DNA from: Membranipora membranacea
Taxonomy: Eukaryota; Bryozoa; Gymnolaemata; Cheilostomatida; Membraniporidae
DNA: 64,000 bases
Direction of reading: 5' to 3'
NCBI GenBank assembly: GCA_914767715.1
Contig: OU612074.1
Span: 12,138,062-12,202,061, forward strand
Both the position numbers and the translations under genes were made by a program. This document shows positions 12,425 through 63,525 of this stretch, piece after piece; the stretch's first letter is position 1; every line of letters starts with the position of its first letter. Below the pieces are notes generated by a model. That model was not told the origin of the DNA and ran no database searches. It worked only from the letters and a program-made list of their open reading frames with translations.

Positions 12425-12459
<35 letters not shown>

Positions 12460-26587: not shown

Positions 26588-27575
26588 ATGATAGGACAGG
26601 AGAACTTCAAAACTATTTCCAGTGCAACCTATCGCATGGCGCTTTTTACCATTACTCTTTTGACCTGTCTCTTGATTCTGCAGACAGGTTCGGTTCTCTG
26701 GCTATGGCACTCAGGAAGGTTTGAAACCCAAACAGGAAGTAGAACCTGCAAACTTGACAAGGTAGGGAATTCAGGGCAACTACTAGAATTGCAAGGTATA
26801 GTCACTCAACACAATCCGAAGAATGGGCGGTAAAAATAGTGGGGGCCTTAGGGGCTAGCCTGCTATTTCAGCGCCAATTCGCTCTCAGTTTGTTGGCAGG
26901 TGGGGTCATACATGTCAGTGGACTGCATTCGAACCCACAACCTCCAACATTAGCATGAATGGCGCTCAAACCAACTGAGCCACCTCTCACTCCTTTTTTC
27001 TTTAAACAGAACAAGGTCGTGGAATATCAGATAAACAATTCCAGTATAACCTGCTTTTACTATTGCACTTCTCTCCATTTCCAGCAGAATGATGGAGATA
27101 CAATCATACCCATGGCAAACATAAATAAACGATTTATATCTGATAACTTAAAACAGATGTATCTAAACATCCCTAAAAGTCTTCTACATGAACTGGTAAG
27201 TTATGTTCACATTGATTTTTTCTTAACCAAATAGCCTGCTATCCAAAGTGATGAAAATGTTTGGAGGGAGGATGAGTCATCAGTTGACCAGGAGCAGATA
27301 AATCCGAAAACATGCACTGGATTGTGCATCAAATAAATTTTTTAGATACACATACACATGTGTGCCGATATTCGGATTGCATCTAAGCCTCTAACAAGCA
27401 CACATCCTGCTTTGTAATATCCTTGCTTGATGATGCCATTGCATGTCTTGATATTACAGCTGTGCTCATTTTTCTGTAGGCTGTGGATGGACCTCTGATA
27501 CCAGAGCACTCATTGGCCTCTATCATCAACAGCTGCCCTGTTATATGCACTAGCCGCTGCCATGAGGGTGCGTGA
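26588..27575 (+). CDS. Small type II membrane protein with C-terminal C-x3-C-x3-C, member A (126 aa)
   Basis: Three phase-0 exons: 26588-26761 (58 codons, AAG|GTAGGG), 27085-27195 (acceptor CTCTCCATTTCCAG, donor CTG|GTAAGT) and 27480-27575 (acceptor TTTTTCTGTAG). Exon 1 gives a short N-terminus, one helix (~17-41) and LWLWHSGR just outside. Unlike its relatives, A has Gln instead of the intramembrane Glu and lacks the juxtamembrane Cys. Exon 2 has a dibasic site (NINKR) and a LNIPKSLLHEL end matching IVIPRSCARKIGAQL of member C. Exon 3 ends SCPVICTSRCHEGA, containing the C-x3-C-x3-C motif. Basic residues before the helix predict an outside C-terminus. I do not recognise the family. The shared architecture in five places is the main evidence that these short exons are real. 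Confidence 0.7.
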
Positions 27576-27807
27576 TTCCTAGCTACACTACTGGGGGTCT
27601 CAGAAGAGAACTTACCCTAGAAGGGTAAATCATTCTCAGGAGGAAAAGCTTGCCAATTCGAACAAACTTGCAGCAATAGCTTACATAAGGGCTAGCTTAC
27701 ATAATTTCCCTGCATTTATTTTCTATATATTCAATACCCCTCTGCTACCCAAAATTGAGATTTAAAAAACATTAAGACACCCCCTCCCACTAGCTAAACT
27801 TAATGGC

Positions 27808-28191
27808 TGGTGCACATTGTCCCAGACGACCATCCCAGATAGTCATCCCAGTCAATGTGAACATGAAAACGACACATTCCCAGACTGTCTGGGTTCGTCT
27901 TGGACAGTATCGGGAAAGTTCGTAAGCGTCAAACTTTCCCGATGCTGTCCCAGACTGACCCAGACTCGTTTTACATCTGGGTGCTATGTGAACCAAACAT
28001 TTGGATGATCTGGGATCATCTGGGACAATCTGGGACGATCCTAAACAATGTGAACATTATCAAAGCACTATCCCAGACAAAAACCTAATTGCTAGTCTGG
28101 GATTCATTTGACAATGTGAACATAAGACTGGGACCATCTGGGATAAGCATCTGGGATGGCATCCCAATGACATCTGGGACAATATGTACCA
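27808..28191. mobile_element. Foldback element rich in TCTGGGA/CCCAGA motifs
   Basis: The left end TGGTGCACATTGTCCCAGA is the inverted match of the right end TCTGGGACAATATGTACCA (about 19 bp, two mismatches). The interior carries more than ten TCTGGGA-type motifs in both orientations. It also holds a strong internal hairpin near 27903-27950 (ATCGGGAAAGTT/AACTTTCCCGAT). No target duplication was found. It lies just downstream of gene A; the ORFs crossing it are artefacts. Confidence 0.65.
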
Positions 28192-28791
28192 CCCTTTACT
28201 CTAGCTGGCATCTATCCTCTAGTCTATGGCATACAGTAGCTGTAGAATTATCGCTTCAATACTTGAATTGGTTGTCGTCATAATTCCACTTTTCAATTAT
28301 TTATCAGAAATTTTTACTTATTATTTCTATATAATTTATTTGCATTTATAAAATAAATAACGAAAACTCCAATCATCAACTTATTTCATTCTTCACACGC
28401 CATTGACTGAGTATTGATATTTTATATGAGCATACACTGAATTATCTTGTCAAGACTAAAGGGAGGGTGAAAGTATTGGGCCTGTTCCCAGATAACGGAT
28501 TTTAGACACCTATTATCTTCATAACATAATGTCTCATAGCAAATAAATATTATTAAACGCACACATCCTTGGCATCAGCGAATATATAAATCAGTTAATC
28601 TTGTATTGTCAAGCCCTAAAAACTTAAATTTATTTGCTGTAAGCTTTTCCTTTTCTGTCTCAGCCCCCTCACTCTTGTAATCTTTCAACCAGGTGATAAA
28701 TTCAGATTGAGATCCGTATCAGGCTTCTGTGAACGAACACATGTTAACACATGCGGCAATTAATAGCTGATGATTGGTATACAGTCCTGTT

Positions 28792-28797
28792 TATAAA
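28792..28797 (+). promoter_or_regulatory. Candidate TATA box of small membrane gene B
   Basis: TATAAA lies 69 bp upstream of the chosen ATG (28861), almost the same spacing as gene A. Transcription would start near 28820, so the in-frame ATG at 28816 would sit at or before the cap site. This favours 28861 as start. Confidence 0.5.
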
Positions 28798-28860
28798 ATT
28801 TCATTCAAATCCTAAATGCGCTATTCCTATGACCTATCTATAGCTAAACACAGTAGAGAG

Positions 28861-30118
28861 ATGGAGAAGAGCAATACTGAGTCTGTTTCTGATCGCAAAT
28901 ATGGGATAATAAGTGTACTAGTTTCACTGCTTGTTATACTTCTGCTGCTAGAATCTTCATTTCTCCTGTGGCTTGGGTGTACTGACAGGATTACCTTCGA
29001 CATTACAGACAACACCTCAAATGACAGCGTGAATGTAAGATGACTAAATTCATACTTAGATACCATTTGCAGGGTGTAGACAGTCCCCATGAATCATGAA
29101 TACCAACACTAAAAGTAAAAACTGGATGCAATTTTATAATTGTTATGGATCTTCTTAAGTTTCGATCATGTTGCCATTCTCAAACAATCCTTAAACCATA
29201 ATGAGTCACCTTCCCACATAAACCTTCCTATAAACTTGACTGCGGATTGCCACATGACACACAAATTTAACTCAGCGGTATGTTATATATGGGCCATAAA
29301 TGACATAGGCCATAACAATATAAATTTATAATTAAATGAATGCAAAACACTCTCAAACCAAGCCAAGACCTGGAGAACATTTTGAATATACCCCAGTATG
29401 AAACTAGTTTTTTTTTATATCTTAGGACAAGCAAGCTGTACAACAAAAAAGGTCTTTGGTCTCTCAGTTCAGAAGCGAGCTTATCAACGATAACAAACGC
29501 AGATTTGTGCGTGCTGGAGAGCCAACCACATTCATGGACCTCAAGGTGACTGGCGATTCAGAGAATAAGCGTGCTGTCAAAGTTCCAGATGTATATTGAT
29601 GCCAAGATAAGATTTTCCAACTTAGATAAAGAAGAATTGAAAACATCATTTTGTTTGAGAAATGATTTGGTTAGAAATATTATTCAATTTTGCAGACATT
29701 TATGTAGTAATTTGCTTTGTTGTGCAGGTCGAGCATACAGTAAATGTCATTGCGCTAAAAATGTTTCTATCTAAATACCTACCACATGACACATTGAACA
29801 TAAACACACCCTGTAATACAAAGTCATCAATGCTCCAAAAGCGTTGCATAAGAGAAACCACGTCAGATTTTGTAGCAATGCTGTCACCAAGCAGCTATGT
29901 TAGGAGTATGGATCAAAACTGATGCTCGACAGTAGATTGCCAAAACTAAAGCTATTCCCATTCATTTATATTTTTGGTAGCGAAAGGATGACTTTGAATA
30001 TTATAAGCCTGCAAGTATCAGCGACCTGTGTCCGACAGTGTGTGCACCTAGATGCAAACAGAGCTCACCTTTGTGGGAAATGGCTGCCATCCAGACAAGA
30101 GATGGAATGGACAGCTAA
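28861..30118 (+). CDS. Small type II membrane protein with C-terminal C-x3-C-x3-C, member B (~143 aa)
   Basis: Proposed exons, all phase 0: 28861-29034 (58 codons, AAT|GTAAGA), 29426-29545 (40 codons, acceptor TATATCTTAG, donor AAG|GTGACT) and 29981-30118 (45 codons plus TAA, acceptor TATTTTTGGTAG). Exon 1 encodes a charged N-terminus, one helix (~14-37) with Glu31, then W37-L-G-C40-T-D-R43. Exon 2 is basic with KR and KRR sites (QQKRS, NDNKRRF), possible proprotein cleavage sites. Exon 3 carries LCPTVCAPRCK, the C-x3-C-x3-C motif, followed by a longer tail than in A or C. The exon 2 donor is less certain: reading through it gives a stop after 11 more codons. Function unknown. Confidence 0.6.
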
Positions 30119-31342: not shown

Positions 31343-32566
31343 CTAGAAAATGACAAACCACAAAGACCATCTAGGAAAGAAATCTTCTTGTTTTCTGTGA
31401 TTGGATTGTTGAAGATACTGGTCCTGTTAGAGACTGTGATTTTCATCTGGCTCTTCTGTACGGATAGAATTGTTTTAGATGCGGATCAGAAAATCAATAG
31501 GGAAGTACTTCTAGAAAAGGTGAAAAATTTATAATGTATTCTATTTATAGTATAATGATATCTCTATTCATATTGCAGAATTAAATTTTAGTTCAACTGA
31601 AATTTAATGCTGGACAGTTTATTGTACACCAGCAAAGTCCTAGTAAGTGACATAGGGAGATATATACACCCGTGGTTGCTGGGGGCTCAAACAATCAACT
31701 TGAAAGCTTTTCCAGTGGGACACATGACTCCTGCGGCGACCATCCCCTGGCAGTAAAAAGCAGGCTTGCTCATCGATTGCACCGAAAAAGAATGGGTTGA
31801 TCAATTAACAAGCACTCTTGCTGTTCACTACTGGGAGTCGTGCATTTGCATCCCATTTGCATTTACATGCCAGTGACAGAAACCTTCTAATCCCATTACA
31901 GAGGAACATAATACCTGATGACTTTGACAACAATGAACTAAAAGTCCCTGTTAGAGAATCAAACTCTCCTGAAGTTGTGATTCCTAAAGATTGTGCCACA
32001 AAGATTCTTGCCCAATTAGTAAGTATGCTCACCATAGATCATCTAAGTGGTGGTGGATATGTTGCTTAAATATAGAGAATATCTATACACCTGTCATATT
32101 ATTATAGATTAGATCAAGCCCTCAAACGGACAAATTGTCATGACTAACCCTCCCCCCCCCCCCGCCCTAACAAATCCAATTGTTGTTAGATTGCATGCCT
32201 AGGAGTAGGAGCCAAGAAAAAACTGCCTACCATCATAATATTATCCTCGGCTCCTTACAGCATTCAGTTGGACTAATTCTGATTGGTTTTTATTTCTCAG
32301 TTCTGAACCACTAAAAGCTTTGCAAGGAGGCAAATCCGACTGAAGAGAAATTCGCTCTGAGATATATTAATTGTGCCCTCCCCACTCAAGCGCTTTCTAT
32401 TCTTTACCTCATAAAAATCTCAATTGTTATGTTTTAGATCAAGAGCCGTACCCTACAGGTACAATTCACCAGTTCCGGTATATGTCCTACTGTATGCTTT
32501 TCTGTCTGTGATCCTGCTAAACAGAATCAAAAGATCCAGCAAACAAAAATTCAGCAAAATCAGTGA
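31343..32566 (+). pseudogene. Small type II membrane gene, member C0, start codon lost
   Basis: Closest paralogue of member C. Exons by homology: 31343-31519 (59 codons, LEK|GTGAAA), 31902-32018 (acceptor ATTACAG, donor TTA|GTAAGT) and 32438-32566 (acceptor GTTTTAG, stop TGA). All are open and phase 0. The helix, Glu, WLFCTDR motif, the VVIPKDCATKILAQL segment and the terminal CPTVCFSVC motif are intact. However, the codon matching C's initiator ATG is CTA, the frame upstream runs to a TAA without an ATG, and the only nearby ATG (31350) is out of frame and stops after 16 codons. The RVKR site of C is RNII here. It is either a recent pseudogene or uses an unseen upstream exon for its start. 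Confidence 0.65.
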
Positions 32567-34941: not shown

Positions 34942-36458
34942 ATGGAGGGAAATAAACCACAAAGAACATTAAGAAAAGAAATCATCCTGTTTTTTGTGAT
35001 CGGTTTGCTGACGATTCTGTTACTGGTGGAAACCTTGACCTCTGCCTGGCTGTTCTGTTCAGATAGAAGTGTTTTAGGCCTGGACCAGAAAACAGATAGA
35101 GAAGTACTTCCAGAAAAGGTATAATAGCATTAGTAAAATATTTATATATATATTTATATTTTTTTCATGTAGCAATTTGGATCAGAAAATAGTCAATCTC
35201 AGAAAGGTATAAATCGTTACATTGTTCATATTATATAGCCTTAGCTGTTAATTGACATTGTATTATATTAATTATGTCATTAATCATTAATTCAAATTCA
35301 ATTTTTTTATATATGGCATTGTATTTTAAAACAGTTAGAACAAAATCTGATAAATCTGTGACTTAATGTACACTCCCCCCCCCCCCAGTTGTATGGTGTT
35401 GTAATAAAGCCCAAATTAATTGGTATTCAGTGAGGATTGGATATGAATTATATTGTCAGCATTGAAGAGTTGAGCATTTATGAGTATCAAAGTGATAACT
35501 CCTGATTCTAGTCTCTAACACATATTAACTATCTTTCTGATAGGGTAGAGCCAGGCTGTGGTCAAAGGTTCAGGCCAGCTAAATTATTGTGATGTAGTAA
35601 TGACCAATGATCTTATTTTACAGAGAGTCAAACGTAGTGAATTCCTCACAGGACCTAAATCTATAGCTAAAGATCTCTACAATGATGAACTTGAAATACA
35701 AGCAGCAGCTGGCCTTACTGGTTATCCTGAAATCGTCATCCCTAGAAGTTGTGCAAGAAAGATAGGTGCTCAACTGGTTAGTGAAACTCACCACTGACAG
35801 ATTTATAATCTATGACTGAACACAACGTTTGCTAAAATTATAACAAAATTTTACACTTCATCCAACAATTAATAAAAGTAAAATATATATTTTCAATTTA
35901 GCTTCTCTGTTTTCTTCCTTTCTAAGCATGGGATATAGCATGATTCTTATTTCTTGTATCAATGTAAGGTACGTTACCTTATTTTTCACAATCAATTTCA
36001 ATCATAGACTTGATTATTAAGTCTATAATCTCGATCCTTTTAGTCTGACAGGTAAATTTTAATGGTCTGCTACGGAAAACATTGTAATTCTAAATGAGCA
36101 TTGCACCCTGTGATAAATAATGAGATTGCAGATTGCAGACTGTATAGCGTATAAAAAACATATCGGTTGAGATTTCCAATCATTTTATATTGTCTATATA
36201 TGTGTCTCTATTCCTGCGCTGATGTGATATATACATACTTTTATTGGCAACCACAGTCATCTCATTAGAAATGTTTTGCATTCAGTGCCAGAAAAATTAA
36301 GCGTTAGGTGAGGCATTTACATATTAAATACCACAATATGTTATGTTTTAATTTTTCAGAAAAAGAGGCCAGATGCTAACAAAGGTACTGCCAGAGCTAA
36401 GTTCACACATATCTGTCACAATGTCTGCATGCCTGTCTGCTACGAGCCAGCTAGATAA
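34942..36458 (+). CDS. Small type II membrane protein with furin site and C-x3-C-x3-C, member C (142 aa)
   Basis: Three phase-0 exons: 34942-35118 (59 codons, AAG|GTATAA), 35624-35776 (51 codons, acceptor TTATTTTACAG, donor CTG|GTTAGT) and 36360-36458 (32 codons plus TAA, acceptor AATTTTTCAG). The N-terminus is basic (NKPQRTLRKE), with one helix (~14-37) carrying Glu30, then W36-L-F-C39-S-D-R42. Exon 2 opens with RVKR (residues 60-63), a textbook R-x-[KR]-R proprotein-convertase site. It continues to PEIVIPRSCARKIGAQL, shared with C0. Exon 3 begins KKR and ends CHNVCMPVCYEPAR. Cleavage at RVKR would free a roughly 79-residue C-terminal product with four Cys (one in exon 2, three in the motif). 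Secretion and cleavage are inference. Confidence 0.75.
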
Positions 36459-36960
36459 GGGAATACACAGTTAATTAAATGCGCTATCATTGCAAATGGT
36501 TAACATATATAATTTTTTTTCTTTCAATTATTTCCAGTCCTGCTTCAGCTAAGCACACCAACTTTCAACGAAATCTTCCCAGCCACTTACTCTTGAAGGC
36601 GACTTTTTTGAATTATGGACAAACTATGGAAAACATCTCTTAAAACTAATTTTTCCAGATTTTTCCAGATTTTAGGGCTGCGCCAACACTAAAATCTTAT
36701 TCCGCTCATATTGTGCAAGTCACTCAAAATTCAAAGAACAATGCTTATATACGTTTGGACGATAACTTTAATAACCAACAAATTATGAATGAGTCTCAAT
36801 TCGATTTCGTTTCAAAATGTTATGCTCAGCCCTAATCATGGGGAAAAGAAAAGAAAATTTTAATTCACTGAGTATTGACAATAAGTACTTTTCCATTAGC
36901 CTTGACCCGCGGCCAAGAAAAGTGGCCGCTTGACAAGGTCTCTTCACCGTCATTTTTGAA

Positions 36961-37374: not shown

Positions 37375-37380
37375 TTTATT
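37375..37380 (-). terminator. Candidate poly(A) signal of the ankyrin-caspase gene
   Basis: TTTATT on the plus strand reads AATAAA on the minus strand, about 450 bp past the stop at 37830. Nearer candidates are absent or weaker. Confidence 0.3.
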
Positions 37381-37829: not shown

Positions 37830-40816
37830 TCAGTCTTGTGTAACAGAATGATTAATGGCAGGTGGAAGTATGAGAGTTTTATCTAGAGTCATCCTGAATT
37901 CAGGACACTGTTCTCTGCAGGCTGGATCTGTTACAGCATGTATATACATACTACAGATATCCTTCTTACCATCAGCCTCTCTGAACTCATTAGCGATGGC
38001 TCCTGTAAATGCCCCTCTGTATGCTAAACCGCCTGTTACTGTGGCCATTAGGAGTGCTGTGTGACGTCTTCTCAGAACTATGTGTTTGTTCTGATGGGGG
38101 TCAAGTACACTGCTGGGTGTTGCTGGGTCTGACTCACAGTCGTCTGCAGGTGGCAGCATACCGTGTGTAGAGAACACTTGACAAGCCTGAATAACCATTA
38201 TCTGAAACAGTAAAGATATATATAATAGGTGGGGTCATTGCAAGAGTATCCGGAAGGTTTTTGTTTGGAACTACTCATTACTCTTAGCTTCGGCTGTTTT
38301 TTAGAGTACACCGACAACTTTATATGGTGTATCAGGTGAAGAGAAGATGACTCTCTATTTTAAAACTTGTCGTACAATTCTAGCAGAACAAATTGAGTAC
38401 ACTAGATAGTTCATGATATATTTTGTCTCTACTATTCCCATATCGTCTAGGAATTAGCAATAACCAGGAGTGTCTGAGAATACTACATTAATGTTCTATA
38501 TTTTACACTTGGCCTTCAATATTGATTCAAGAGAATTGCATTGTGGGTTATGTAGGTACAAATATACAAAAGGTTTTGGGTAACAATATATCTGAATTTG
38601 GCTATGATGAGACTCAGATTTCAAGGCAGTTCACTTAATTCAAACCTCTGGGATGACAAAAATTTATCTTAAGTAAGCAGAGTCTGAATTAAGTGACATG
38701 ATTTGGTGGAAGGGACCAAATTTCCTTGCTTGGCTGAATTAACAGGAGTTCTGGAGTACAGTGTAGTATAGTAAGGTATTCTTACAAGTGGTATAGATTC
38801 AGGCAGAGTGTAGGTGAACTGGTGAAGAATATCATTAACTGCAATCTCTTCTCCTCCTTGTCCCTTCAGTACACCTCTAGAGCCATGGGACATCAAACAC
38901 ACAATCAACAGTGAGCAGTCACCGACAATTCTATCCATAGCACTGTCAATCATACACTGAAGTTCCCTAGCCTCATACCACTCCATTTTCATCACCTCAC
39001 AACCCTCTGCCTCCAAAGCCTGCTCCAGATCATCTGCTTCTGCTGCTGCTCCAGACCTGTTAGCAGAGCTGAACAGTATCAGTCCGTATCTCTTACTTTT
39101 CACTTGCATGTATGGGACGATGTACTGTGCGCTGAGAGGAGACAACACCTGTATCTGATCTACAGTTAGAGACTCTGTCTCTGTGATGTTCTGTATCTGA
39201 GTGATCTGATCTATAAAATAGAAGGTAAAGGTCAGATGATCACAATCAGTGTAACCTGGTTAATTCAGACCGTATATTTCAGAAACTCAGACAGGAAAAA
39301 TTGGTGCCTTCGGCCTTTAGCAAGATATCAATGCATTCTAATGACACTTAATTTAGACTCTGATTAATAAGCTGCACTGTATTTCATTCTGTTGGTTTAT
39401 ATCACTGATGTTTAAAATTCTGTGCGATGAGTAACAGACTCATGACTGCATGCTGAACAAAGAAGTATTCTATTGCAGGGCCGTAGTTTAGAAACAATGG
39501 TAGGGGAGGCAAATGTCCAAAGCATCACCAGGAGGGGTGCTGTAAGCTCCTCCCCAAGCAATTTAAGGCGTATAATTAGCAATGGAAATCCCAGAGGAGC
39601 CATTTATATATTATTCTTATACACTCAATTAGCGTTTTTGGGCCACTGTATTAAGCTTTCTAGGGGAACCAGTGACTCCCTGCCTTCCCTAGAACTACGA
39701 TCCTGTATTGATAATGGTGGTCACCACTATTAAAAGGTAATTTGTCAATAACTTGGATCAAATCAATTTAGGTCATTTCAGAACACCATTCATGCATAGC
39801 TGCTGTGGCTCATTTATTGAACATTGAAAGCTATGCAAACATAATCTCTGCACCAAATGCACCAATGCATTGCATAAGACACAATTTTACAAATATTATC
39901 AACTCAAAAAATTAGAGTCCCTCCTAGGAAATAGTAGCCTACCTTTTCGATCAGTTTCACGTAGAGCCTTTTGAGTTTTTGCAGTAGCCCTAAAATCATT
40001 GATCCACCTGGTGGCTTGTCTGAATTTGTCTTCATCATAAATATATGCCAAATCTAATGGTGGTTGAGGGGTGGAGAGTAACTCCAGCCAATCATCATTA
40101 GTTACACTGTCTCTTATTGCTTGCATTGGTTGGTCATCATTCCAATATGCTGCTATGTGTAGAGTTGTATATCCTCTACGAGACTTCAACTGTACAAGAT
40201 CAATCCACTGCTGCTCTGTTACCGATTCCTGTATTATATTCAAGGTATGAGTGAAACCATTCAGTACTATACAGTGTAGTGGATTACAACCATGATAGTC
40301 CATGATCTGCAGTAGAGCGTACCTCATATCCTGATTAACACTCTCCATAATCAACCTCACTGAGTCCTTGTGACCATCGTAGATACAAGCTACTTGGAGA
40401 GGTGTCCATTTGAGCCAGTTGTTCTTCTTAAGCAGAAGTTGGTAACTTTCCTCTTCATTTACACAGTCCAGTATCAGCTTCATCAAATCAATTCGTTTGT
40501 AATACCCACAATAATGCAGCGCTGTGGAGCCGGCAGTATCCTCAAGACTGAACAGTCTCATCAAGTGATCATGTGAAATGCACATAAATATGACCTCAAA
40601 CATCTCAGCAGCTGTATCTCGGATAGCATGTTTCCAGATTAGTGGCTGGACACTCAAAAGCTGAGCAATCTGCTGATTTACTCTCGGTACATCGTCTTGG
40701 TTATAATTGAGTTCATGCACGAGGTGATACTCTAGTCCAGTCTGATCATAGTAGAGTTGATTATCGTGTCCCAACCACACTGGGTACTGCATTGTTACTG
40801 GTGCTCCCTCTGCCAT
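37830..40816 (-). CDS. Ankyrin-repeat caspase-like protein, 556 aa
   Basis: Three exons with continuous phase: 40816-39943, 39210-38786, 38201-37830. I start at ATG 40816 (MAEGAPVTMQYPV); the frame upstream has no other ATG. Residues ~90-270 contain four or five ankyrin-like repeats (GSTALHYCGYY, WTPLQVACIYDGH, CNPLHCIVLNG, YTTLHIAAYWN). Exon 2 carries a caspase large-subunit fold with the catalytic His in CLMSHGSRG (~His400). Exon 3 carries the Cys pentapeptide as QACQV (~Cys440; the family norm is QAC[RQG]G). A small-subunit-like region follows, with AYRGAFTGAIANEF in the place of the SWR...GSWF segment. Ankyrin at the N-terminus instead of CARD or DED is unusual. It is probably a cytosolic protease triggered through the ankyrin region. 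The altered pentapeptide makes activity uncertain. Confidence 0.88.
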
Positions 40817-40849
40817 TATTACCGATGATCTGAATGAACTGAACAAACA

Positions 40850-42409
40850 TGCCTCGATGGAAATGGAGCTATCCAGTTACTCATAGAAAAAAATGGATTT
40901 TCCCTATACGACCCAATAACAACCTTGACTACAGTAAAGTGATAGAAAAACCAAATTAAAGATATGTTACCATGTCAACCATCATAATTGTTATTTGATG
41001 TAATGTGATGTGATTGGTACACAGGACCATCTGTATGGAGTAGAAGGCTAATACCAATATAGTATATTTAAACATACAAACAGATTAGGATTAATGAGCC
41101 ATTTCATTGCATAACGCACCTGTCAGCTGATATAAAGTTATGAAAATTTCAGGTTTTCTCTTTTTTGGAGAAGGTGGAAAACATTGTCCGGGTTTTCCAG
41201 AAAAGGCGGAAAAAGGTTTTTCACCTTGAATTTGGTGATGGCGATAAGAAAAGTAACACATTTAGAATCACGGAAAATATTGTTCACCTAAAAAATTTAG
41301 TTTTATTCAGTTCATAATTTCTCTTTCTTAAACAAAATATTGCACCAGGGATGAGATTTTGGAAAACCCAGAAAAGTGTTTTCAGCCTTTGGATATTTAT
41401 CTTGATGAAAGCTTGAATGGAGAGAATTGCAGCGCTCAGATGAAACAGTAGACTTTGTACTCCAAGTTTATATTGTGCATAATCCGCAACACCAAAGCAA
41501 CACCAAAGCAACACCAAAGGGTCAGATTGGAAAGAGTGTTCATATAGTTATGTTACCACGATTAGAGAGAAGATAACTCCTGTCATAGAGAAACCCTAAC
41601 TGTCGACAACACTGAAAAAAGTTATGGAGATAATCCCACTGGATTTGGATTTTGTGTTGTTATAGAGAAATATCAAAATGAGTAAGTTTGCTAGGAAGAT
41701 GTGTACTGGGAGAAAGCAAAGATTTATTGTTCTGCTCAATGAACGCATGTTGAATTATGATGGTGGTTCAAATAATTTTCTGTCCTGACTGACTGACTGA
41801 CTGTATGTTTGCAGCTATAAAAACATAATTATGTTCTTTGAATAATCTTAAAGCAAGGAGGCCCGCGGATCAGCATATTCAAATTATAACATTAGTCATG
41901 ACATTGGTTACATCCTTTCAGCGTAAATTATGTCAATCGGCTGGAAATGTGTTAATAAGCATTTTATGATTCACTAGGAGGGTTGCGGTAGTCTTTGATG
42001 AATGGATTGGTGAACGCTCGAACAAAAAAAAATTCTCATTTTTAAATTTTGCTGCCTTTTCCGTGTACTCTGCTAACTGGAGGTCTCAATGTGTTTATGA
42101 CTATATTGATTGTTTTGTGGTGAGAGGCTCACAGTGGCCATAAGAGACAATAACCATTGAGGTATTTTGAAACTGCAGTATGTTAAAAATATACAAGTCT
42201 TTATTCACATTCAGCCTGGAGTCTTCTCATTTCAGCATATTTCAGGCAAGGTAACGGCTTATAACATTGAAAGGAGAAGAGTTGTTGTAGTTAAATTCTT
42301 CATCATGAAACAAGAGATGTTGACAAAATGAATCTTCTGTCAAGTCATTAATATCAGGGCCTGAGAGGGCCTTTTCCTTTTATGTAAAATACCGGTGTAA
42401 AAAAGAAAG
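40850..42409. other. Intergenic between divergent genes; no gene seen
   Basis: It separates the minus-strand caspase-like gene from plus-strand member D. It has a small tandem repeat (CAACACCAAAG units, about 41490-41520) and a GACT run near 41785. No domain-bearing ORF. Confidence 0.4.
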
Positions 42410-42660: not shown

Positions 42661-43765
42661 ATGGATGAGAACATCAAACGCTCGCAAGTTAAGAATGCTG
42701 TCATATATACAGTACTGACACTGACGGTGATACTGCTGATTGCAGAGACATCGTTTGTAGTCTGGTTGTTCTGCACAGATAGAGTCAACCTGGATAACCA
42801 AATTGTTCCAGTGTGTACAGAACCGATGCACGCACAACAGGTGAGACTGTTTTATATGAAACTAGCCTTAACCGAGTCGCTATCATTTGGAAATATGACA
42901 TCTTCTATTTTGATTTTGTGGTAGGCGTTCAGCGGGTTGCAGATAGGTCAGACTTCCCGTTAGTCTTTTTTTTTCTTTCCTTATACGCTAGGTTCTACGA
43001 CCGCCCTATTCAAGTTAGTGTGGCTTTTGTGAGGTCGTGACCCTATACTGTTACCCTCCTTAGCTTGGCTGCACTTTGTCAGCAGGGCAGAGTTGGATCT
43101 TTACACAGCATGTTGGGGGGTTGTGCTAACACACAGTGGACCTCTTGCATATATGGCCCTGCATTATATTCATCGATTCAAACATAGCAATCTTCTCGAA
43201 AAAATGTTGATTTAACGAATCTGAATAATACCGAATTTAAGTTTCTTCTTAAACATAATTATTGATATTTCGATATGTCTATAAAATGAATTGAATCAAT
43301 AATAAAAATATTGTGAATAGAAAAATAGCTGAGTACAATAAAAAACTTCATTGTGTAGGGTAGCCTAAATGGTGCAGTTCTTAAAAAAATGCGCCAAACT
43401 CAACGGAAAGGAGTAGGACCAGAACAAAATTAATCCGTTGTAGCTCTCACCATGTGGATACAATCGGTCCAACGAAAATGTTTTACTAATACACTATCCT
43501 CATGTCTAATTGCTAATATGGAGTTGAAGCTTAAAAAATTGCACAACTTGACAAAAGAGTGAGTTTATATAATAAAAGACTTGAAACAACACAACAGTGA
43601 ACAAAGTGTGGATGATATATAAAGCTGTTGGAACACAATGATACTTTATAGTTTTAGGACGAGTGGCTACAATTTGAAAGACGAAAGATTGATTTACAAA
43701 ACTTGGAAGCAGTAGGACAAAGCATGGCTGGTAAATGCAGCTTTAGCTGTTCAACAAAATGCTGA
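42661..43765 (+). CDS. Small type II membrane protein with C-x3-C-x3-C, member D (95 aa)
   Basis: Two coding exons in phase 0: 42661-42840 (60 codons, CAG|GTGAGA) and 43658-43765 (35 codons plus TGA, acceptor TTATAGTTTTAG). The N-terminus is basic (MDENIKRSQVKN), with one helix (~13-36) carrying Glu29, then W35-L-F-C38-T-D-R41. The terminal exon has a dibasic site (QFERRKID) and ends with KCSFSCSTKC, the C-x3-C-x3-C motif at the very C-terminus. The middle exon present in A-C appears to be missing. The stop is followed 6 nt later by a donor (AAG|GTTAGT) that would splice to a 3' UTR exon at 44548, an arrangement shared with E. No role is known. Confidence 0.7.
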
Positions 43766-44547
43766 TAGCAAGGTTAGTAAGGTGTTATACCCGTGAGTGA
43801 AGGTCAGTGTGGTAATTTTGGCGCCCCCTCCCCTGACTCTGGTCTGGGAGCTAGCTGGTAAATGCTGCATGTGACCTTAATCAGTGTATTGGTATGATAT
43901 CTTAATGTGATCCAGGGGCTGACAGTGTTGGTTATAATAGCTGTTTGGTGCTGTTTAGTGCTGATTTCTAGACTGTGAGTCAACACATTATGCAAACACA
44001 CTACCTCCATCATTACACCTACATTTACAACCTGGGTTTAACCCAATTTTAAGTGACTTGATTTCTTTGACCACTGTCTTAATATTTTTTGTTCACCGCA
44101 GCTGCTCTGGTGTTTTCGCTGTCCTTTTTTAGACAGCCAGATGGACAAAAATATCAACAATTCTTAATCCGCTGTGAAATTTTGAATTTAGAGTTAAAAT
44201 GTTAAAATGTTTAAAAACTTCTATACCCCTTTAAAGGAGCTATTATCGGAGATTTTTAGAAACATGATGTGTTTTTTAAATAATGGTGTAATTTTAGTCC
44301 AATCAAAAATTATATTAGCATTATCTCGGAATTAGGACAAACATTCATTATTGAGTTCATGGGAGAATCAAAACATGCGATAATAAAGTCTATACAATAA
44401 TAGTGAAAACATTAATGTTATACATTTTTTAAATCAGCGTACAGACAATTTTGCCTCCACCTGGACAGGAAAAGACTAATTTCATTTGTTGACTAATACG
44501 TCATAAAAATGTCAAGGTCAACTGATATGTTTTTTTTTTCATTGCAG

Positions 44548-44846
44548 ATTAGAATAGCACAGAACAGTGAAGAAGATATGTAGCTAAATATTGCTTGTTG
44601 ACTGTTTATATCATTGTACTATAGCTTGCCCTGAACTGCAAGTGTCTGAGTATCTGACTTTGAAGGTCGTTTAAAATACTATCTATTTTATCAATCAGGC
44701 CATGAGTACATATACTAAATTTTCAGGGCGGGTCTTGAGCGTTTTGAGGGGTAACTGATTCCAGCGTGACTTATAGAAAAGTAAGCACTGAACACAAAGA
44801 TTAGAACTGCTTGCAGTAATATCGTTGCTTAAAGTCCTGAAATAAA
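44548..44846 (+). other. Predicted 3' UTR (or alternative last) exon of member D
   Basis: An acceptor (TTTTTTTTTCATTGCAG) precedes 44548, and AATAAA is at 44841. The sequence is homologous to 63081-63525 downstream of E. Joined to the stop-containing exon it is 3' UTR. Joined directly to exon 1 it would add IRIAQNSEEDM and stop. Confidence 0.5.
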
Positions 44847-46259
44847 AATAAAAAACTGTTGCTTTGAAACCAGCTTTAAGTAACTAGGCTTCTTGCGTAG
44901 AGACCAGATTAATCATGGTTCAGGTAATTCCCTACCGATTTAAAACAATCAAACCTGGTTTTATCCAGAAGGGTGGGACACCTACCCTCTCTGGTTTGAT
45001 GTTATCCTGAAATATAGACTTCTAGGAGTTATCCTCTTAATATCAATGAATAGACGACTCTGTAATGCTCCATCAACTTTTGAGTGTCGTATTTTTGCTC
45101 ATAAAAAATTTTCGATATGCAGATTAGCAAAACTTGAATCCCAACGCAAATTTGCAGGCTTGGGAGATAACTTGATATACTGTTTATGTCAATAACATAG
45201 ATCTTCAACCGAACAAAAAAGTAATAGATGTGAAACAAGTAAATCAAATCCTAAAAAATGTAAATTGTCAAATCCGATCAATGAAGTAGTGTTTTAGGCA
45301 TCTCTAATTGTATGCTGTTAGATTATAAGGCAAATTGTATTAGGCCTAGGCGACTATACGTTCTCATCTAATTTTGAAGACGATTGATCAGCTGAAATTT
45401 CTTCTGGTCACTAGCTGCTTTAAAAGCGCTGGGGATTAGAGGCATGTCAGTTTCATGGAATAGATAGTTTAAAAGCAAACATCTGCTTTGTACCTTTCAA
45501 ACAGACTGCATGCAATTAGGTAGTTGAGTAAAATAAAAGGGTTTGTTGGAATTAAATAACACACATGGTAATTAGTTCCATTCTCTTGACCTGGCCGGTG
45601 GACTAAATATACCTCAAATAATAATAATCAATGACAACTTATGTAATATGCTCTGTAATACGCTTACTCACACTAAGTGAATACATCGCTACTCAATCTG
45701 TCTGGTTGGCCCTATACTTTATGATGGGGTCTTTTTATAAACAAATCATGAAAAATGACATGAGAAGTACATTTATCACTGTTATTCTTGCACGCTTGCA
45801 CAAAACCTATTATTATGCCGCAACTGTGTTCGAGGGGTGACTACAATTTGTCTGTAAAACGTCAACCATTGGGTTTAGCAGTATGATATTTTCCCAAAAA
45901 CTACTCAAGATATGCATGATATTGATAAAAAAAATTCAATGACACTGCTTCATTCTATGAACTTTGCCAAGAGAAGTTAAATTGCAAAAAACGCCCTTTT
46001 AACCCCCTTTTTCGTGTTTCTTACTTGGATTCGCCCCTTTTTGCCCCATTTGTGAAATGGTACATATGCGTCATCAGAACGGCCATAAAAAACTACACCA
46101 GATACAGTCTTCAATTTCCTCTGTTCAAGACACTTACACAGATGTAATTTTTAGAGCCTTTTATGTATAGCCGCTGCTGGCCTACTAGTCATATCTTGTG
46201 AGGTGAGAAATTATGCCTACCCGAGGAGAATACGGAGGAAAATATTTTTAGCAAATTAT

Positions 46260-46498
46260 ATCAATCAGTCAGTAAGTTCAATCTCGTGGTTAGATTTACC
46301 CATGTATATTGTCTCCTGATCTATCTAATCATATTGGCAACATATACCATAAGGTTAGCTATGTTCAGGCCATCATAAGCTGAGATAGCACATTAAGTAT
46401 TTAGCTGAACATCAAAAGAATTTACACACTATTTGTACTGGGACATGATGAACTATGATATGATAAATATGCTGTCGTATATATGCCGAGAGCAGTAG
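46260..46498 (+). pseudogene. Decayed remnant of a D/E-type gene start
   Basis: The upstream blocks (TATCAATCAGTCAG, ATATTGGCAACATATACC, GCTGAGA) align with the D and E promoters. At 46445 a frame begins ATGATGAACTATGATATG and continues with a match to the D/E codons for NAVIY (ATGCTGTCGTATATA). It hits TAG at 46496 before any transmembrane helix. The rest of the gene is not recognisable nearby. Confidence 0.5.
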
Positions 46499-46499
46499 C

Positions 46500-47010
46500 A
46501 CCACTTGCTGACATTTGCCTATGTCTCTCCGCTTACAGCCGTTTATACTTATCTTTACGCTTCCTGTAATGTATACTCTATTTTATTTGGCAGACAATAT
46601 CTTCCTGGATAGATGTTTTCCAAAAAAACTACGGCAAAGGTTTGGGGAAACAAAAGTGAAAAAATGATAATGTTTTGTGTTTGGAGAATTGATTGGTATA
46701 CCATATTATAATGCATTAACAACATTAGTAATATTAAATAATAAAAGATATTTGAGCAAAATTTTCAGTGAGGGTTTTGAAATATGTCAAGGTTATATCA
46801 AGGCTAAGGTTAGTACTCTTTGTCCACCTTCATTCAAATGTCTTGCCTTATTTTACAGATCGGCGTTAGCATGCATGTATAAGAAAATACGCAGATAAAT
46901 AAAGCCACAGTAATTTTTTTAATTATAGGCTACATCCATTTTTTTCTAATTTTGAATTTTATCAGTCAAATTCGTCAAGTTTGATCTGGATCAACATCAT
47001 AATACTGTCT
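46500..47010. other. No supported gene
   Basis: AT-rich. The open frame 46677-46898 lacks family features or splice logic. Confidence 0.35.
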
Positions 47011-55359: not shown

Positions 55360-55367
55360 ATATACGC

Positions 55368-56138
55368 CATAGACTTAATATACTACCTAGACAGGACAAT
55401 GCTTATGCTTCACTGATCATAATGTGTCCCACTTAAATAGCACGACATGACGTAATTAGTTTGTGCTGTGAGGCATAGTTTACTATATACCATTCAATGA
55501 AATAATGTGAAAAATCAAGGGACGCCGCGCATGATATCAGCTCTTGTCCGGCCCCTAATTATTTAAACACAGAGAAAATTTGTGAGTTTGTGTAAAAGAC
55601 CGTTCCGCACGAGATGGTATAAAAATTGACTCCTTAGGCGAATCTAGAGCGAGAACAGACCTGATAAGTTACAATCATTAGCCAATAAATACTGAAACAA
55701 ATACAGCCATCTACCACTACTATTCAAATGCACAGAATACCCACAACACAGTATCACAAATATTTTGTTGGATGAGCCAGATCAAAGCACCACCACCATC
55801 ATCATAGATTTTTGCATAAATATTCCTAGTCATGACTGAGCACAACCTGCTCAGCTTGGATACCTTGTTACAAGTTTTTACTGCAATTTTTTTGTCGCTT
55901 CATGAGGAAGAATAGATCTGTGCTGGAAATTGAGTATGCCAACTCCAGGTATGTATGTATGTATCATGAAGCTAGGGTACGTGGCACATATATATATATA
56001 TATTAAGTCTATGGACATCTCTCATCAATGAAATAATATAGTAAATCAAGGCACGCAGGGTATAATACCAGCCAAATTATATTAGATCTGTTTTAATTTA
56101 TGAGATACAAATTATCAAAACAAATACAGCCCTGTACT
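55368..56138 (+). repeat. Left terminal inverted repeat of the P-like element
   Basis: 771 bp, inverted match to 57774-58541. Within the arm, a block with TCAATGAAATAAT...AATCAAGG.ACGC and CAAATACAGCC occurs twice (about 55490-55720 and 56025-56138), so the long arm appears to have grown by internal duplication. Confidence 0.85.
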
Positions 56139-56364
56139 GAAACAGAAGATGAAAGATACTATGTAAACAAAGTGGTTACTGGTTTTAATATTCATCCTTT
56201 TTGAGATTATTTATTTATATAACATGAACCTGCAGCCTGCTGTCTCATCTTCACAAGTAAGCCCAGCTGCAATTTTACTATCATCAGTTGCGAGATACAA
56301 GGCAAACATAGAAGTTCTGGATATAATACCCACGCCGCTCAGTTTATAGGAAAACTATTTTTAA

Positions 56365-57321
56365 ATGAGCCTACAGCCTGCTACCTCGTCTTCACAAGAT
56401 GATAATCTGGCTGCCTCATCTTCACAAGATGATAATCTTGCTGCCTCATCTTCACAAGATGAAAATCCTGCTGCTACCACTTCACAAGATGATAAAGTAA
56501 GAAACAGCCCAGTGGTGGCTCTCATGTATGCATTGTCATATTTCCGTCTTTATTGGATTGAATTTTTTGGCATAATTTCTGCTTGTCCCATCCATCTAAG
56601 ATCTAAATCAATTAAATATTGTCATATAATAATACCCACATCCTTCTATACATGCACATAAATTTAAGGCTATAGACATAGTAAATAATAATCGATGGGT
56701 GTGATAAAATTTGAATGTAAGAAAAAAAAGGTGGAACGATAGTGATGGGGCGGGGGGGGGGGGCTGGAGGGAAACTATTTGAGATGACAATTCTGATTTA
56801 CTCCCGAAATATCTAACTCAGAACTGGCACAGCAGTCAAAAAGTGTGAGTAGACTTAATCGGTGATCTCGCAAATCTTTCTTGGCCATGCTGATGCTCCT
56901 ATGAAATTGATTTTACAATTTCTGTTTATCATATCAAAAGCTGTAGTTTAATGATAATTATTTGTATATGTTATCATTTGTGATGCTTTTAAAAAAGTCA
57001 TCTAGAAACTGGTGTGCTGCCTACGGCTGTGGAAATACCCCGGCAGGAAATCCTAATTTAAGCTTCCACGCCTTCCCCAGAAATAACGAGGAGAGACTAA
57101 AGGTATGGGTTTCGGCCGTTAAACGCAAGAACTGGACTCCATCCAAATATGCTGTTCTATGTAGCGAACATTTGAAACGAGATACATTTAGAAGGCCTCC
57201 TGGTGTGGGTGGGAGAGCTTTGCTCAAAAAGGATGCTATCCCAACAATTTTCCAATCCTTCCAACACTATCTACAAACCCCTAAAAGTGAAGAGATATAC
57301 GCTGGTCAGAATACACCATGA
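56365..57321 (+). CDS. THAP-domain protein of the P-like element
   Basis: The THAP domain (about 57005-57265) has the C2CH pattern (CAAYGC ... CSEH), with HAFP, W-x-x-x-V-x-R, NWTPSKYAVLCSEH and a KKDAIPTIF end, all diagnostic. It is a DNA-binding zinc module. The frame stops at 57321 (GQNTP) soon after the domain. A possible upstream exon (56365-56494) encodes MSLQPATSSSQDDN and a 10-residue SSSQDDNLAA-type repeat. It could join in phase 0 through GATAAA|GTAAGA and an acceptor before TCATCTAG (SSRNWC). Alternatively translation starts at ATG 56983. A degenerate copy of the first exon lies at 56224. A THAP-only product resembles the truncated repressor forms of Drosophila P elements. Confidence 0.65.
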
Positions 57322-57384
57322 AACAACCAAACTCGCAGCAAACACTGGCAATAAGCGCTCCAAACTGAGCAGGCTTATTGTGTT

Positions 57385-57740
57385 CAGTGACTCAGTCATA
57401 TCTAATTTTCAGCGATCGCTGATAGTGATAGTGTCTCGTTTGGAAATTTTGCAGCAATCACCGATAGTGGTAGTTTTCTAGTCTTTGACCCATCCGCAAA
57501 ATTCAGTATAATCCCACAGTATATATTTTTTTTGATAAGTAAGTGTAAGAAGTGGTTAGCTTACATTGCTCTACTAATTTGATTAATTTTAACGTATACT
57601 GCAACCAGTCATATCTAACTTTGCAATGCTCGCTGATAGTGGTAGTATTTTTAATTTTTGTCGTGCCCACAACAGCAATAGTGGTAGCCGTTAGCCTTGG
57701 TCGTGCCCTCATAAATTAGTATAATCCCGCAGTAACAGCC
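57385..57740 (+). repeat. Internal direct repeats of the P-like element
   Basis: TCATATCTAA, CGCTGATAGTGGTAG and AGTATAATCCC(G/A)CAGTA recur two or three times next to the right TIR. Subterminal repeats of this type often bind transposase, which is inference here. Confidence 0.5.
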
Positions 57741-57773
57741 CTCTGTTTTGTCATGTAGTGATAAAAGTGGTTA

Positions 57774-58541
57774 AGTACAGGGCTGTATTTGTTTTGATAA
57801 TTTTTATGTCATAAATTAAAACAGATCTAATATAATTTGGCTGGTATTATACCCTGCGTGTCTTGTTTTACTATATTATTTCATGGATGAGAGATTACCA
57901 AAGACTTTATATATATATATATGTCACTTACCCTAGCTTCATCATACATACATATCTGGAGTTGGCATACTCAATTTACAGCACAGATCTATTCTTCCTC
58001 ATGAAGCGACAATAAAATTTGCAGTAAAATCTTTTAACAAGGAATCCAAGCTGAGCAGGTTGTGCTCAGTCATGACTAGGAATATTTATGCAAAAATCTA
58101 TGATGATGGTGGTGGTGCTTTGATCTGGCTCATCCAACAAAATATTTGTGATACTGTGTTATGGGTATTCTGTGCATTTGAATAGTAGTGGTAGAAGTGT
58201 TAAGAGTAGTCGGCTGTATTTGTTTCAATATTTATTGGCTAATGATTGTAACTTATCAGGTCTGTTCTCGCTTTGGATTCGCCTAAGGAGTCAATTTTTT
58301 ATACCATCTCGTGCGGAAAGGTCTTTTACATAAACTCACAAATTTTCTCTGTGTTTAAATAATTAGGGGCCGGACAAGAGCTGATATCATGCGCGGCGTC
58401 CCTTGATTCTTCACATTATTTCATTGAATGGTATATAGTAAACTATGGCTCACAGCACAAACTAATTACGTCATGTCGTGCTATTTAAGTGGGACAGTAT
58501 TGAATGCTATTGGCCTGTCTAGGTAGTATATTAAGTCTATG
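57774..58541 (-). repeat. Right terminal inverted repeat of the P-like element
   Basis: 768 bp, inverted match to 55368-56138 with scattered substitutions and small indels (for example different TA-run and poly-T lengths). The divergence shows the arms have aged independently since insertion or were not recently homogenised. Confidence 0.85.
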
Positions 58542-58549
58542 ATATACGC

Positions 58550-60424: not shown

Positions 60425-60556
60425 ATGGCAGAGCCATCAGCATATGCCTTCACGCCTAGAAGGAAAAGGGATATTGGTGATGTTGAGTACCCTGATCTCA
60501 GTGATACATTTAGTGAGGAAGATGAAGAAGAAGCAATTCTTTTTTCACGTGTATAA
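60425..60556 (+). CDS. Short acidic ORF, possible first exon
   Basis: The ATG at 60425 is in a near-ideal context (GAACCATGGCA). The 43-codon frame reads MAEPSAYAFTPRRKRDIGDV and then an acidic run with SEEDEEE before TAA at 60554. A weak donor (CGT|GTATAA) just before the stop suggests it could be a first exon. A possible following exon near 60947 (GVVDVVELDPYLIRSIHLHG) was not confirmed. Acidic N-termini like this are common in transposase genes. No function can be assigned. Confidence 0.25.
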   Translation: MAEPSAYAFTPRRKRDIGDVEYPDLSDTFSEEDEEEAILFSRV

Positions 60557-61404
60557 AATATTGTTTGTGTAATTTCTAATGATGGCTGGTATGATACGAG
60601 TCGAAGGACTTCATTACAGATGGGAATCTGAGGCTGGGCGTACTGCAATCAATATCCCGAAACGCATTGACCAGCTCAGTTTGTGCCCGATGACCTGCAT
60701 ACCACTGGTCAGCAGATCTCCACAAGCTGACTAATGATGCCGTTAATTGACAGGAGGATATGTTTTGTACAATAGGATTCTTTGCATTCATTCTTTGCAT
60801 TTTTCCTTTTTTTTACAGTGTCATTTCCATGGCTTTTTGGGGAAATGATTTTTTGGGGTATCCTTGCGTCATATGAGTAAAATACCATTTTTGTTTTTAC
60901 AACAACTCGCCCAAATACACTGGTTTTGTTGCTTATTAGGGGTTGTAGATGTTGTTGAGCTTGATCCCTACTTGATCAGATCCATTCATCTTCATGGCTA
61001 TGACTCATCATACAGAGGAAGGACGCACCAATGTCATTGTGATGCTGATGATCTGTCTCCCTCTTAACAGCTTCTACAATCTCCTAAACAGATATCGAAA
61101 CAGTTCGATTACAGATGTTATTAAAACACACATGTGACGAAATTGAGGATTATTCTATTAGCTATCTTCTTTAAATTTGCATCATCCACACTTGTTAATC
61201 ATTCAGCTAGCAACCTCCATTAACTGTAGAAAATAATTCCTCAGCTTTACGGGCATAGAACATCAGTGGGTAAATCAAATTTGTTGCCGACCGCAAACTT
61301 ACACTTCCTTCCTAGAAAAATCATTCTCAAGTAACAGCTCTGAGGCTGGTGCATGAAGCTTCATCGGTTGAGGTAAATACAAGAGGTAAAATATACTCAG
61401 GGAG

Positions 61405-61649
61405 TCTTATCAATCAGACAGTAGATTTGGTTGTCTGGTTTAATGTAAATATGTACAATGTTGCCCTCTTAATCGAATCTTAAATCGGCAACAAATACCG
61501 GAAGACTATTCTACACAGGATATGATTGATCCGATGAGAAAACACATCTGGTATGTAGCTGCATACCCCAAGTATCAATACAATAAGGGTAGCACAACAA
61601 ATAATAGTATGATACACTGAATAACACATTTTGCGTAAAGTGAAGCAAA
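61405..61649 (+). promoter_or_regulatory. Conserved upstream region of member E
   Basis: Aligns along about 240 bp with 42410-42660 upstream of D, including TATCAATCAG, GTACAATGT.GCCCTCT, the CGGAAGA block and GTAAAGTGAAGCAAAATG at the start. Confidence 0.55.
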
Positions 61650-62512
61650 ATGATGGATGAGAACATCAAGCGCTCACAAGCTAAGAATGCTGTCATATAC
61701 ACAGTATTGACACTGGCTGTGATTCTTTTGATTATGGAGTCATCGTTTGTAGTCTGGTTGTTCTGCACAGATAGGGTCGACTTACATGATCGGATTATTT
61801 CAGCAAGTACAGACCTGCCCACACCGAAGGTAAGATCTTATCATAAGAATGAGTTTAAACTAGATCTGCCTGTTATGTAGTTTAAGCGCTCAAAGCCAAG
61901 TCCTGCAACCTGTTTCCATGTGGAGCGAGTGGAAATACGTAAGTATTAATTAAATCACCAGCCCTGTTTCTGCGGTTAAAAATTCCATTTGTCGCCTTAT
62001 AAGGTATCATACAAATCGCTTGGTAACGTCTCTCCATTTGAGAAGTAGTGCCTGTGACTTTTCTTTCACAGACCAAAATACTTCCACAGACTTGACTTAT
62101 GATTAAGTAAACACTTATGTTATATCTGCTCGCACCATATGGAAGCAGTTTTCTCGGTCTGAATAATTATTATTTTTAAATGTAATAGTGTTTATGGTTT
62201 TGTCAACTTAGACATGTGAAAATGAGAGGCTAATTCTTTTTTCATAGGCTCATACAAAAGACATAGGGATAAGATAATTTTCTCAATATTGTTTTCATAA
62301 CTATGAAACAAAAGTTTTGATGATTCAGCTTTTGATAATTGAGTATTTTATTATGTCAATGCATGCGGGTCAGTATATTTTTCTAGGAGAAGACCTTAAA
62401 ACTACAAAGAAGAGTGATTACATCAGCAATAGCTGGCAAAAAAAGGAACGAGCCAGCTTCAGCATCGCAGATAAAGAGTCTGTGCAAAACTTCTTGCCTT
62501 GTAAAATGTTGA
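61650..62512 (+). CDS. Small type II membrane protein with C-x3-C-x3-C, member E (101 aa)
   Basis: Two phase-0 coding exons: 61650-61829 (60 codons, AAG|GTAAGA) and 62387-62512 (41 codons plus TGA, acceptor TATATTTTTCTAG). Exon 1 is nearly identical to that of D (MDENIKRSQAKNAVIYTVLT; the start here is MM, and the second Met matches D), with an intramembrane Glu and WLFCTDR after the helix. The terminal exon is very different from D. It has two basic sites (KLQRRVIT and AGKKRNEP) and ends SLCKTSCLVKC, the C-x3-C-x3-C motif at the C-terminus. As in D, a donor lies 6 nt after the stop (GCAG|GTGAGG), giving a 3' UTR exon at 63081. High exon 1 and low exon 2 similarity suggests a fixed anchor with a fast-changing ectodomain. 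Confidence 0.7.
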
Positions 62513-63080
62513 TTGCAGGTGAGGCAAGTTATTCTGCATTGCAGCGATTTCAATTTCTAGCGCTGTCAAATCTTAGTGAGCTATGAAAAACTTGATTATG
62601 TAAGACCTGACAAAGACTCTTCTAACTTGTGTTCAGCTTTGATTCGATACGCTTTCACCTTCCACGTCAGATTCTATTTTAGCCATTACCCAACAAACAT
62701 CACACCCCATCTCCATTTTGATTGTATAGAGATCTCCAAGTTCTTACAAAGTCCATGGACCACAGGATGGGACATGAGTACGTATAGTTTAAGTTTTACA
62801 AATAATATTGTACACTTGAGGTGCTCAAAAGTATTAGGATAGTTATTTATTGCCTCATAATCTCCCCTGTGCTTCCAGCGGTACCCACAGAGTCAGCGCC
62901 CTCACTCTGGATGTGTAAGCTGTCGTGTGTGCCCCAGTGAAGCAGGCATCTTTGTACAAATTTCTTTGGGTCGGTTATATTGGCCTAAGATTGGGTTTTT
63001 CGGTCCATGTGAACACACAGATTAGAAAAATTTGACAAAACATGTCAAGGTGACCTGAAATTTCATTTCTTCCATTACAG

Positions 63081-63525
63081 ATCAGAATAACACAGAACTA
63101 TGGAGAAATTTGACGACTACTTTGATTATTGTATTTATAACCAATCCTGAGCTGCACATGCTAGAGTATCTGGCTTTGAAGATTGATTTGAAATACATCC
63201 ATTTTACTAATAAAGAAATGAATAGACATATTCAATTTCAGGGTTTAAATATTCAAACTTGTGATAACAAAATACAAGGTGATTCAAGCTTGACCGCTAT
63301 GCTGAATTGATAGAAAGGCTAGCAGGGAACACAAATAACACAAAGACTAAAATGCCTTCCAGTTATATCAAAATTCAGAGTCCTGAAGTCTAAACAAAAA
63401 TATCCATGTAGCATTTCAGTGCTGGTTTGAAACCTTTGAACCTTGCTAAGTTGCTTGTAAAGGAGCCTGAGTCTGGGTTGAGCGACAGCTATCCAAAGGT
63501 TGGTTTTATGTTGTTATGAAATAAA
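63081..63525 (+). other. Predicted 3' UTR (or alternative last) exon of member E
   Basis: Acceptor TTCTTCCATTACAG precedes 63081, and AATAAA lies at 63520. Homologous to 44548-44846. If joined directly to exon 1 it would encode IRITQNYGEI and stop. The open frame at 63110-63310 lies inside it and is not called. Confidence 0.5.

Follow-up and report, generated by a model that had tools for sequence, protein, structure and literature searches.

A cluster of seven small related genes in Membranipora membranacea that look like local duplicates and putative precursors of surface or released peptides

What might be the product of a run of tiny, mutually similar genes that share one strand of a bryozoan genome, each with a predicted membrane helix at one end and closely spaced cysteines at the other? 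The run lies in a 64,000-nucleotide stretch of Membranipora membranacea, hereafter the window (contig OU612074.1, C10:12138062-12202061 of a 339-Mb genome in 18 contigs). An earlier note on the letters alone had proposed an array at 26588-63525 made up of five apparently intact genes, a start-less copy and a remnant. We find six homologous copies in the window, hereafter labelled A, B, P, C, D and E, of which P is the copy without a start codon; the remnant, R, has kept a flank but not a recognisable first exon. The array also runs past its proposed end, with a seventh copy, F, 0.4 kb beyond the window. These seven small related genes look like clustered local duplicates, and their products like putative precursors of small peptides, either displayed at the surface or released.

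The case for a single family is made by exon 1 and by a cysteine-bearing exon downstream of it. In tblastn comparisons between copies, exon-1 matches have expectation (E) values of 4.5e-24 for D and E, about 1e-20 for C and P and 8e-4 for A and B, the weakest being P with A at 0.14-0.35. Exon-1 profiles from which one copy is left out find the omitted copy each time (A 5.2e-5, B 2.4e-13, C 1.3e-17, P 3.6e-19, D 1.4e-22 and E 1.5e-23), and the remaining reading frames of the window score 0.15 or worse against the same profiles. Each of the six window copies is followed, within 1.5 kb of exon 1, by a phase-0, acceptor-preceded exon that carries C-x3-C-x3-C. A scan for such tails, under a criterion set after the genes had been seen (C-x3-C-x3-C ending at most 30 residues before a stop, in an exon preceded by an in-frame AG), returns 6 sites on the plus strand of the 64 kb, one in the terminal exon of each of A, B, P, C, D and E; 8 sites are returned if the AG condition is dropped. 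The minus strand holds 8 such sites, 2 of them with the AG, and 6 of the 8 are overlapping readings of one poly-Cys stretch. Across 200 Markov-shuffled windows, the plus strand has a mean of 0.495 sites (maximum 3), and sites of this type fall within 1.5 kb of at most 1 of the six genes (mean 0.05). On these sequence grounds, an array of homologous small genes sharing one design, as the earlier note had claimed, is confirmed.

Exon 1 encodes the predicted membrane anchor. An N-terminal tail of 11-18 residues precedes the best hydrophobic window in the six copies scored, and the hydrophobic stretch is approximately 25 residues long with a core of 21. At the outer edge of the helix, copies C, P, D, E and F read W-L-F-C-[ST]-D-R, copy B reads W-L-G-C-T-D-R and copy A reads W-L-W-H-S-G-R, such that W-L at the outer end is kept in 7/7 copies and a Cys sits right outside the helix in 6/7. 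Within the helix, there is a Glu in six of the seven copies and a Gln in A, followed by Ser or Thr in six of the seven and by Pro in F. In five of the six copies scored, the N-terminal side of the helix carries more positive charge than the C-terminal side, and in A the two sides tie.

Exon models were picked by eye from the window DNA, with copy-to-copy matches and leave-one-out profiles as evidence for exon 1 of each window copy and the Cys-tail scan as evidence for the terminal exons; all lie on the plus strand. Copy A comprises exon 1 (26588-26761; N-terminal tail, helix with Gln, and stalk), exon 2 (27085-27195, with a longer in-frame alternative that starts at 27010) and a terminal exon with CPVICTSRC (27480-27575). 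B comprises exon 1 (28861-29034), exon 2 with KR and KRR sites (29426-29545), exon 3, the weakest model, with donor TAT/gttagg (29728-29898), and a terminal exon with CPTVCAPRC (29981-30118). In P, exon 1 (31343-31519) has CTA at the position of the ATG start codon of C, and upstream its frame reaches a stop before 31310 without passing another ATG; exon 2 (31902-32018) also has a copy-to-copy match, and the terminal exon carries CPTVCFSVC (32438-32566). C comprises exon 1 (34942-35118), exon 2 with an RVKR site (35624-35776), which also has a database match, and a terminal exon with CHNVCMPVC (36360-36458). D and E are shorter, each with exon 1 (42661-42840 and 61650-61829) and a terminal coding exon that ends with CSFSCSTKC (43658-43765) and CKTSCLVKC (62387-62512), respectively, and then a stop. 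F exon 1, found by genome search, lies at C10:12202454-12202633, which is L007:455-634, and its exon 2 is modelled at L007:1448-1540. D, E and F thus have two coding exons and no middle exon, A, C and P have three with one in the middle, and B has four with two in the middle.

In these window models, all 17 coding exons have lengths divisible by 3, which bears out the phase-0 junctions that had been proposed; AG precedes every internal exon and GT follows every non-terminal one. As the models were chosen by eye, these lengths and splice sites speak for consistency and are not proof. The terminal C-x3-C-x3-C, previously ascribed to every copy, is complete in six of the seven, as F has Tyr in place of the middle Cys (C-x3-Y-x3-C). 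A donor-like GT lies 6-14 bases past the stop in D, E and F, and farther 3′ a segment of D (44505-44728) is 69% identical to one of E (63038-63243), which possibly represents an exon of the 3′ untranslated region. Remnant R (approximately 46.2-46.6 kb) aligns by its 5′ flank (46223-46393, plus strand) with those of D and E at 67-68% identity; a search for an exon-1 frame downstream of this flank found none recognisable.

The two parts of the protein evolve at different rates. D and E are approximately 70-75% identical in about 250 bases of their 5′ flanks, 75-90% identical for the greater part of exon 1 and 55-60% identical in exon 2, and their identity is near background in the intron. We relied on NG86 estimates of nonsynonymous (dN) and synonymous (dS) substitution. 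For exon 1, dN and dS are 0.157 and 0.541 (D/E), 0.22 and 0.889 (C/P), 0.241 and 0.91 (D/F) and 0.221 and 0.469 (E/F), giving dN/dS of 0.25-0.47 in the four pairs, and dN over the first 41 codons of D/E is 0.06. By NG86, exon 1 thus appears constrained; a single YN00 value for C/P, from a run with warnings, disagrees (dN 0.378, dS 0.271) and speaks against constraint. For the ectodomain, dN and dS are 0.873 and 1.223 (D/E), 0.624 and 1.443 (D/F) and 0.487 and 1.84 (E/F), with 0.40 and 2.41 in exon 2 and 0.40 and 2.25 in exon 3 of C/P. The ratio of ectodomain dN to exon-1 dN is 5.7 for D/E (bootstrap 95% interval 3.0-12.4) and 1.8 for C/P (1.07-3.3); with both intervals above 1, ectodomain amino acids change faster than those of exon 1, in line with the conserved exon 1 and diverging ectodomain described before. 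Ectodomain dN over exon-1 dS is 1.6 for D/E (0.69-4.0) and 0.44 for C/P (0.19-0.95). The proposal of a diversifying family, to be judged by dN/dS per exon, is only partly supported: the ectodomain is faster, but its dN/dS is 0.71 (D/E), 0.43 (D/F), 0.26 (E/F) and approximately 0.17 (C/P), with dS of 1.2-2.4 near or at saturation.

Searches place the family in one detected cluster. Exon-1 queries against the genome return 6 matches for C (E ≤ 1), 7 for B (E ≤ 10) and 6 for E (E ≤ 10), and each query finds B, P, C, D, E and F, which together take up approximately 36 kb of contig 10; with A and F exon 2 included, the cluster spans approximately 39 kb. A match to the B query on contig C8 (E 3.8) was inspected and judged spurious. 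No convincing copy was found elsewhere in the 339 Mb with these three queries, all of which also miss A, so that equally diverged copies could escape detection. In the 10 kb before the window and the 20 kb after it, the exon-1 profile finds only F (E ≤ 1; next best 0.51). Pfam, scanned with six sequences (copy E as one exon only), gives nothing above its cut-off (best E 0.11), and the best match among solved structures in the PDB has E 2.6. In the protein database, searched by a method that depends on shared exact 5-residue words and can let distant relatives escape, the whole-protein profile accepts 1 of 3,254 candidates, the 65-residue fragment P0001, which is 94% identical to C exon 2, and the exon-1 profile accepts 0 of 190. 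Viral contigs (three queries) and bacterial and archaeal genome contigs (one query) give no match, in collections that may omit records close to the genome of the window itself. None of the open-licence titles and abstract openings examined describes such a family. The family thus appears unrecognised, as had been suggested: no described family matched among those searched, and P0001 is the only database relative found.

A dibasic site in the stalk suggests a possible fate for the ectodomain. In 7/7 models, KR or RR follows the helix at a distance of 20-32 residues (A 32, B 26, C 20, P 20, D 30, E 29, F 30; a spread of 12). In exon 2 of D, E and F, RR stands in register at residues 8-9 while the rest of the exon diverges. 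Spreads this small are reached in none of 10,000 shuffles for six copies, none for seven and 1 for five without A. Sets of four, with one copy per subgroup, are matched in 2-20 of 10,000, and shuffles that keep local composition are as tight in 0-15 of 10,000 for the six- and four-copy sets. A dibasic stalk site at a kept position, by which convertase-processed membrane precursors may be recognised, is thus present in 7/7 models, and the pattern is broken by A's alternative exon 2.

Our favoured reading, held tentatively and at somewhat less than an even chance, is that the genes, arisen by local duplication, encode type II (N-in) single-pass precursors, from which cleavage at the dibasic site would release a short peptide prone to disulfide formation. 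It draws on the homologous exon 1, the open phase-0 exons, the Cys tail in 6/7 copies, the faster ectodomain and the one detected cluster. Exon 1 would act as an uncleaved signal anchor, with the Glu or Gln of the helix pairing chains or binding a partner. A proprotein convertase would cut at KR or RR, 20-32 residues outside the membrane, and free a peptide of 22-133 residues (22-32 in D, E and F), in which the Cys tail may form disulfides within or between chains and which, once released, may act as a ligand or in defence. A study of a sponge lists six catalytically complete convertases, furin and PC7 among them (PMC6850559), so that the cleavage step would be possible in such an animal.

Several observations weigh against this reading. 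The KR/RR site was spotted after the fact. Three-copy sets without A are as tight in 41-108 of 10,000 shuffles, and the set of B, C and F in 126; a looser test, for KR or RR within the first 40 residues of B, C and D, is passed by 234 of 10,000. The longer exon 2 of A would widen the spread to 37 (4 of 10,000 for six copies, 81 for four). Among the six window copies, the full R-x-K-R motif occurs in C only. Of nine other dipeptide classes compared, a single one, [DE][KR], is nearly as tight, at a spread of 13. Ectodomain dN/dS is low in E/F and C/P.

If the chain were not cut, it could remain whole at the surface as a short tethered chain for recognition or adhesion, with the membrane-edge Cys and the Cys tail linking chains. 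The Cys outside the helix in 6/7 copies and the Glu or Gln within it in 7/7 would both suit stable dimers, and fast ectodomain change also speaks for such a role. The positioned KR or RR in every model speaks against it, and we regard this alternative as rather doubtful. The NG86 estimates for exon 1, with the low dN of its first 41 codons in D/E, are what would be expected if the helix were the working part, acting via its Glu as a small subunit or regulator of a channel, pump or receptor with a loosely constrained outer part; a Cys tail kept amid diverging surroundings would, however, be needless for a passive tail, which makes this explanation unlikely. It is similarly improbable, and perhaps slightly more so, that exon 1 is removed as a signal peptide, with a Cys-tailed peptide simply secreted: secreted peptide families are usually laid out with a conserved leader ahead of a diverging, Cys-bearing mature part, but the hydrophobic stretch here is approximately 25 residues long with W-L kept to its outer end in 7/7. 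Decay of the array, with little if any function left, would account for P without a start codon, remnant R and the Cys missing from F, but is very unlikely given open frames and plausible splice sites in the modelled exons of seven copies and exon-1 dN/dS of 0.25-0.47 in four pairs.

The array also has a neighbour that may share part of its history. Beyond the 3′ end of F, the minus strand carries a mucin-like open frame, rich in Ser/Thr and 538 residues long (L007:6227-7843), and, closer to F, a charged tail that runs to a stop (L007:3782-3600); we infer that the two form one gene. Six minus-strand frames 3′ of F have no Pfam match at E ≤ 0.1. By alignment, fragments of the charged tail recur on the minus strand in the E unit (62850-62933, 59% identity over 32 residues) and in the R unit (46479-46565, 66% over 32, with an internal stop), so that part of the array was once a convergent pair; no such fragment was seen at D. 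A UGA-coded third residue at approximately 62880 in E (C-K-L-S-C-V-P-Q, then TGA) was considered and rejected, because exon 2 of E holds three Cys and 62845-62933 is antisense to the tail of a minus-strand gene, a tail shared with the neighbour of F. A larger scheme, which we consider improbable as a whole, would make this an unrecognised signalling or self-recognition locus of diverging convertase-released three-Cys ligands, some of which were once duplicated along with the tail of a mucin-like gene in convergent orientation that could encode a partner. Farther from F, a Cys-bearing minus-strand frame (L007:9487-9924) resembles L008:2910-3215 by eye.

The window holds other features besides. 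Between C and D, on the minus strand (37830-40876), are a caspase-domain frame (38669-39259) and an ankyrin frame (39899-40876). Inverted repeats of approximately 780 bp at 55368-56144 and 57768-58541, 91% identical, flank a frame with a THAP domain (56947-57321, E 2.8e-16); together with a candidate flanking repeat of 8 bases, they make 55360-58549 look like a copy of a P-element-type transposon. The caspase, ankyrin and THAP matches are of an animal-like kind. A TPR protein of 930 codons (11544-14336, plus strand) has at least 105 database matches among the 7,994 candidates scored, with a best identity of 55% and, where named, from the bryozoans Watersipora and Bugula. A second, partial copy lies on the minus strand within 5482-9233, where 5482-5864 is 79% identical to 11970-11589 over 385 bases. 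Another repeat, at 6172-6407 and on the opposite strand at 48099-47872, is 79% identical and, by eye, looks derived from transfer RNA (tRNA). Gly/Arg-rich (RGG-type) frames, as in RNA-binding proteins, occupy 17000-20000 on the minus strand, and a tRNA-Thr (TGT) gene is at 25495-25569.

A fixed anchor joined to a fast-changing, Cys-tailed outer part would be material for early-animal peptide signalling, recognition or defence, and the compact cluster allows concrete predictions, namely a cut at the positioned dibasic site and disulfide linkage of the tail. Should the genes be silent or their products stay uncut, this would be another lineage-specific orphan family.

Three known systems share parts of the design. 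EDA and BAFF are type II ligands with an N-in anchor, a dibasic stalk site and furin-like shedding of the C-terminal part. The putative precursors would have the same layout of N-in anchor, dibasic stalk and C-terminal releasable part, but no TNF-type domain is detected in them (the Pfam scan has no match to the TNF-homology domain above its cut-off), and the predicted released part is only 22-133 residues long. The minicollagens of cnidarian nematocysts likewise have C-terminal Cys at three-residue spacing, suited to disulfide cross-links; their canonical cysteine-rich domain contains six of them, CX3CX3CX3CX3CC, and is accompanied by collagen repeats and polyproline (PMC4195985, PMC4863159). 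The terminal motif here has at most three Cys (two in F) and comes with an anchor helix, and the translated models contain no six-Cys domain, Gly-X-Y repeats or flanking polyproline. Conotoxins and mussel CRP-I differ in that the leader here looks like an uncleaved anchor and the Cys form a single three-Cys tail; the likeness is one of layout, in which local duplicates combine a conserved first exon with a faster part that keeps its Cys.

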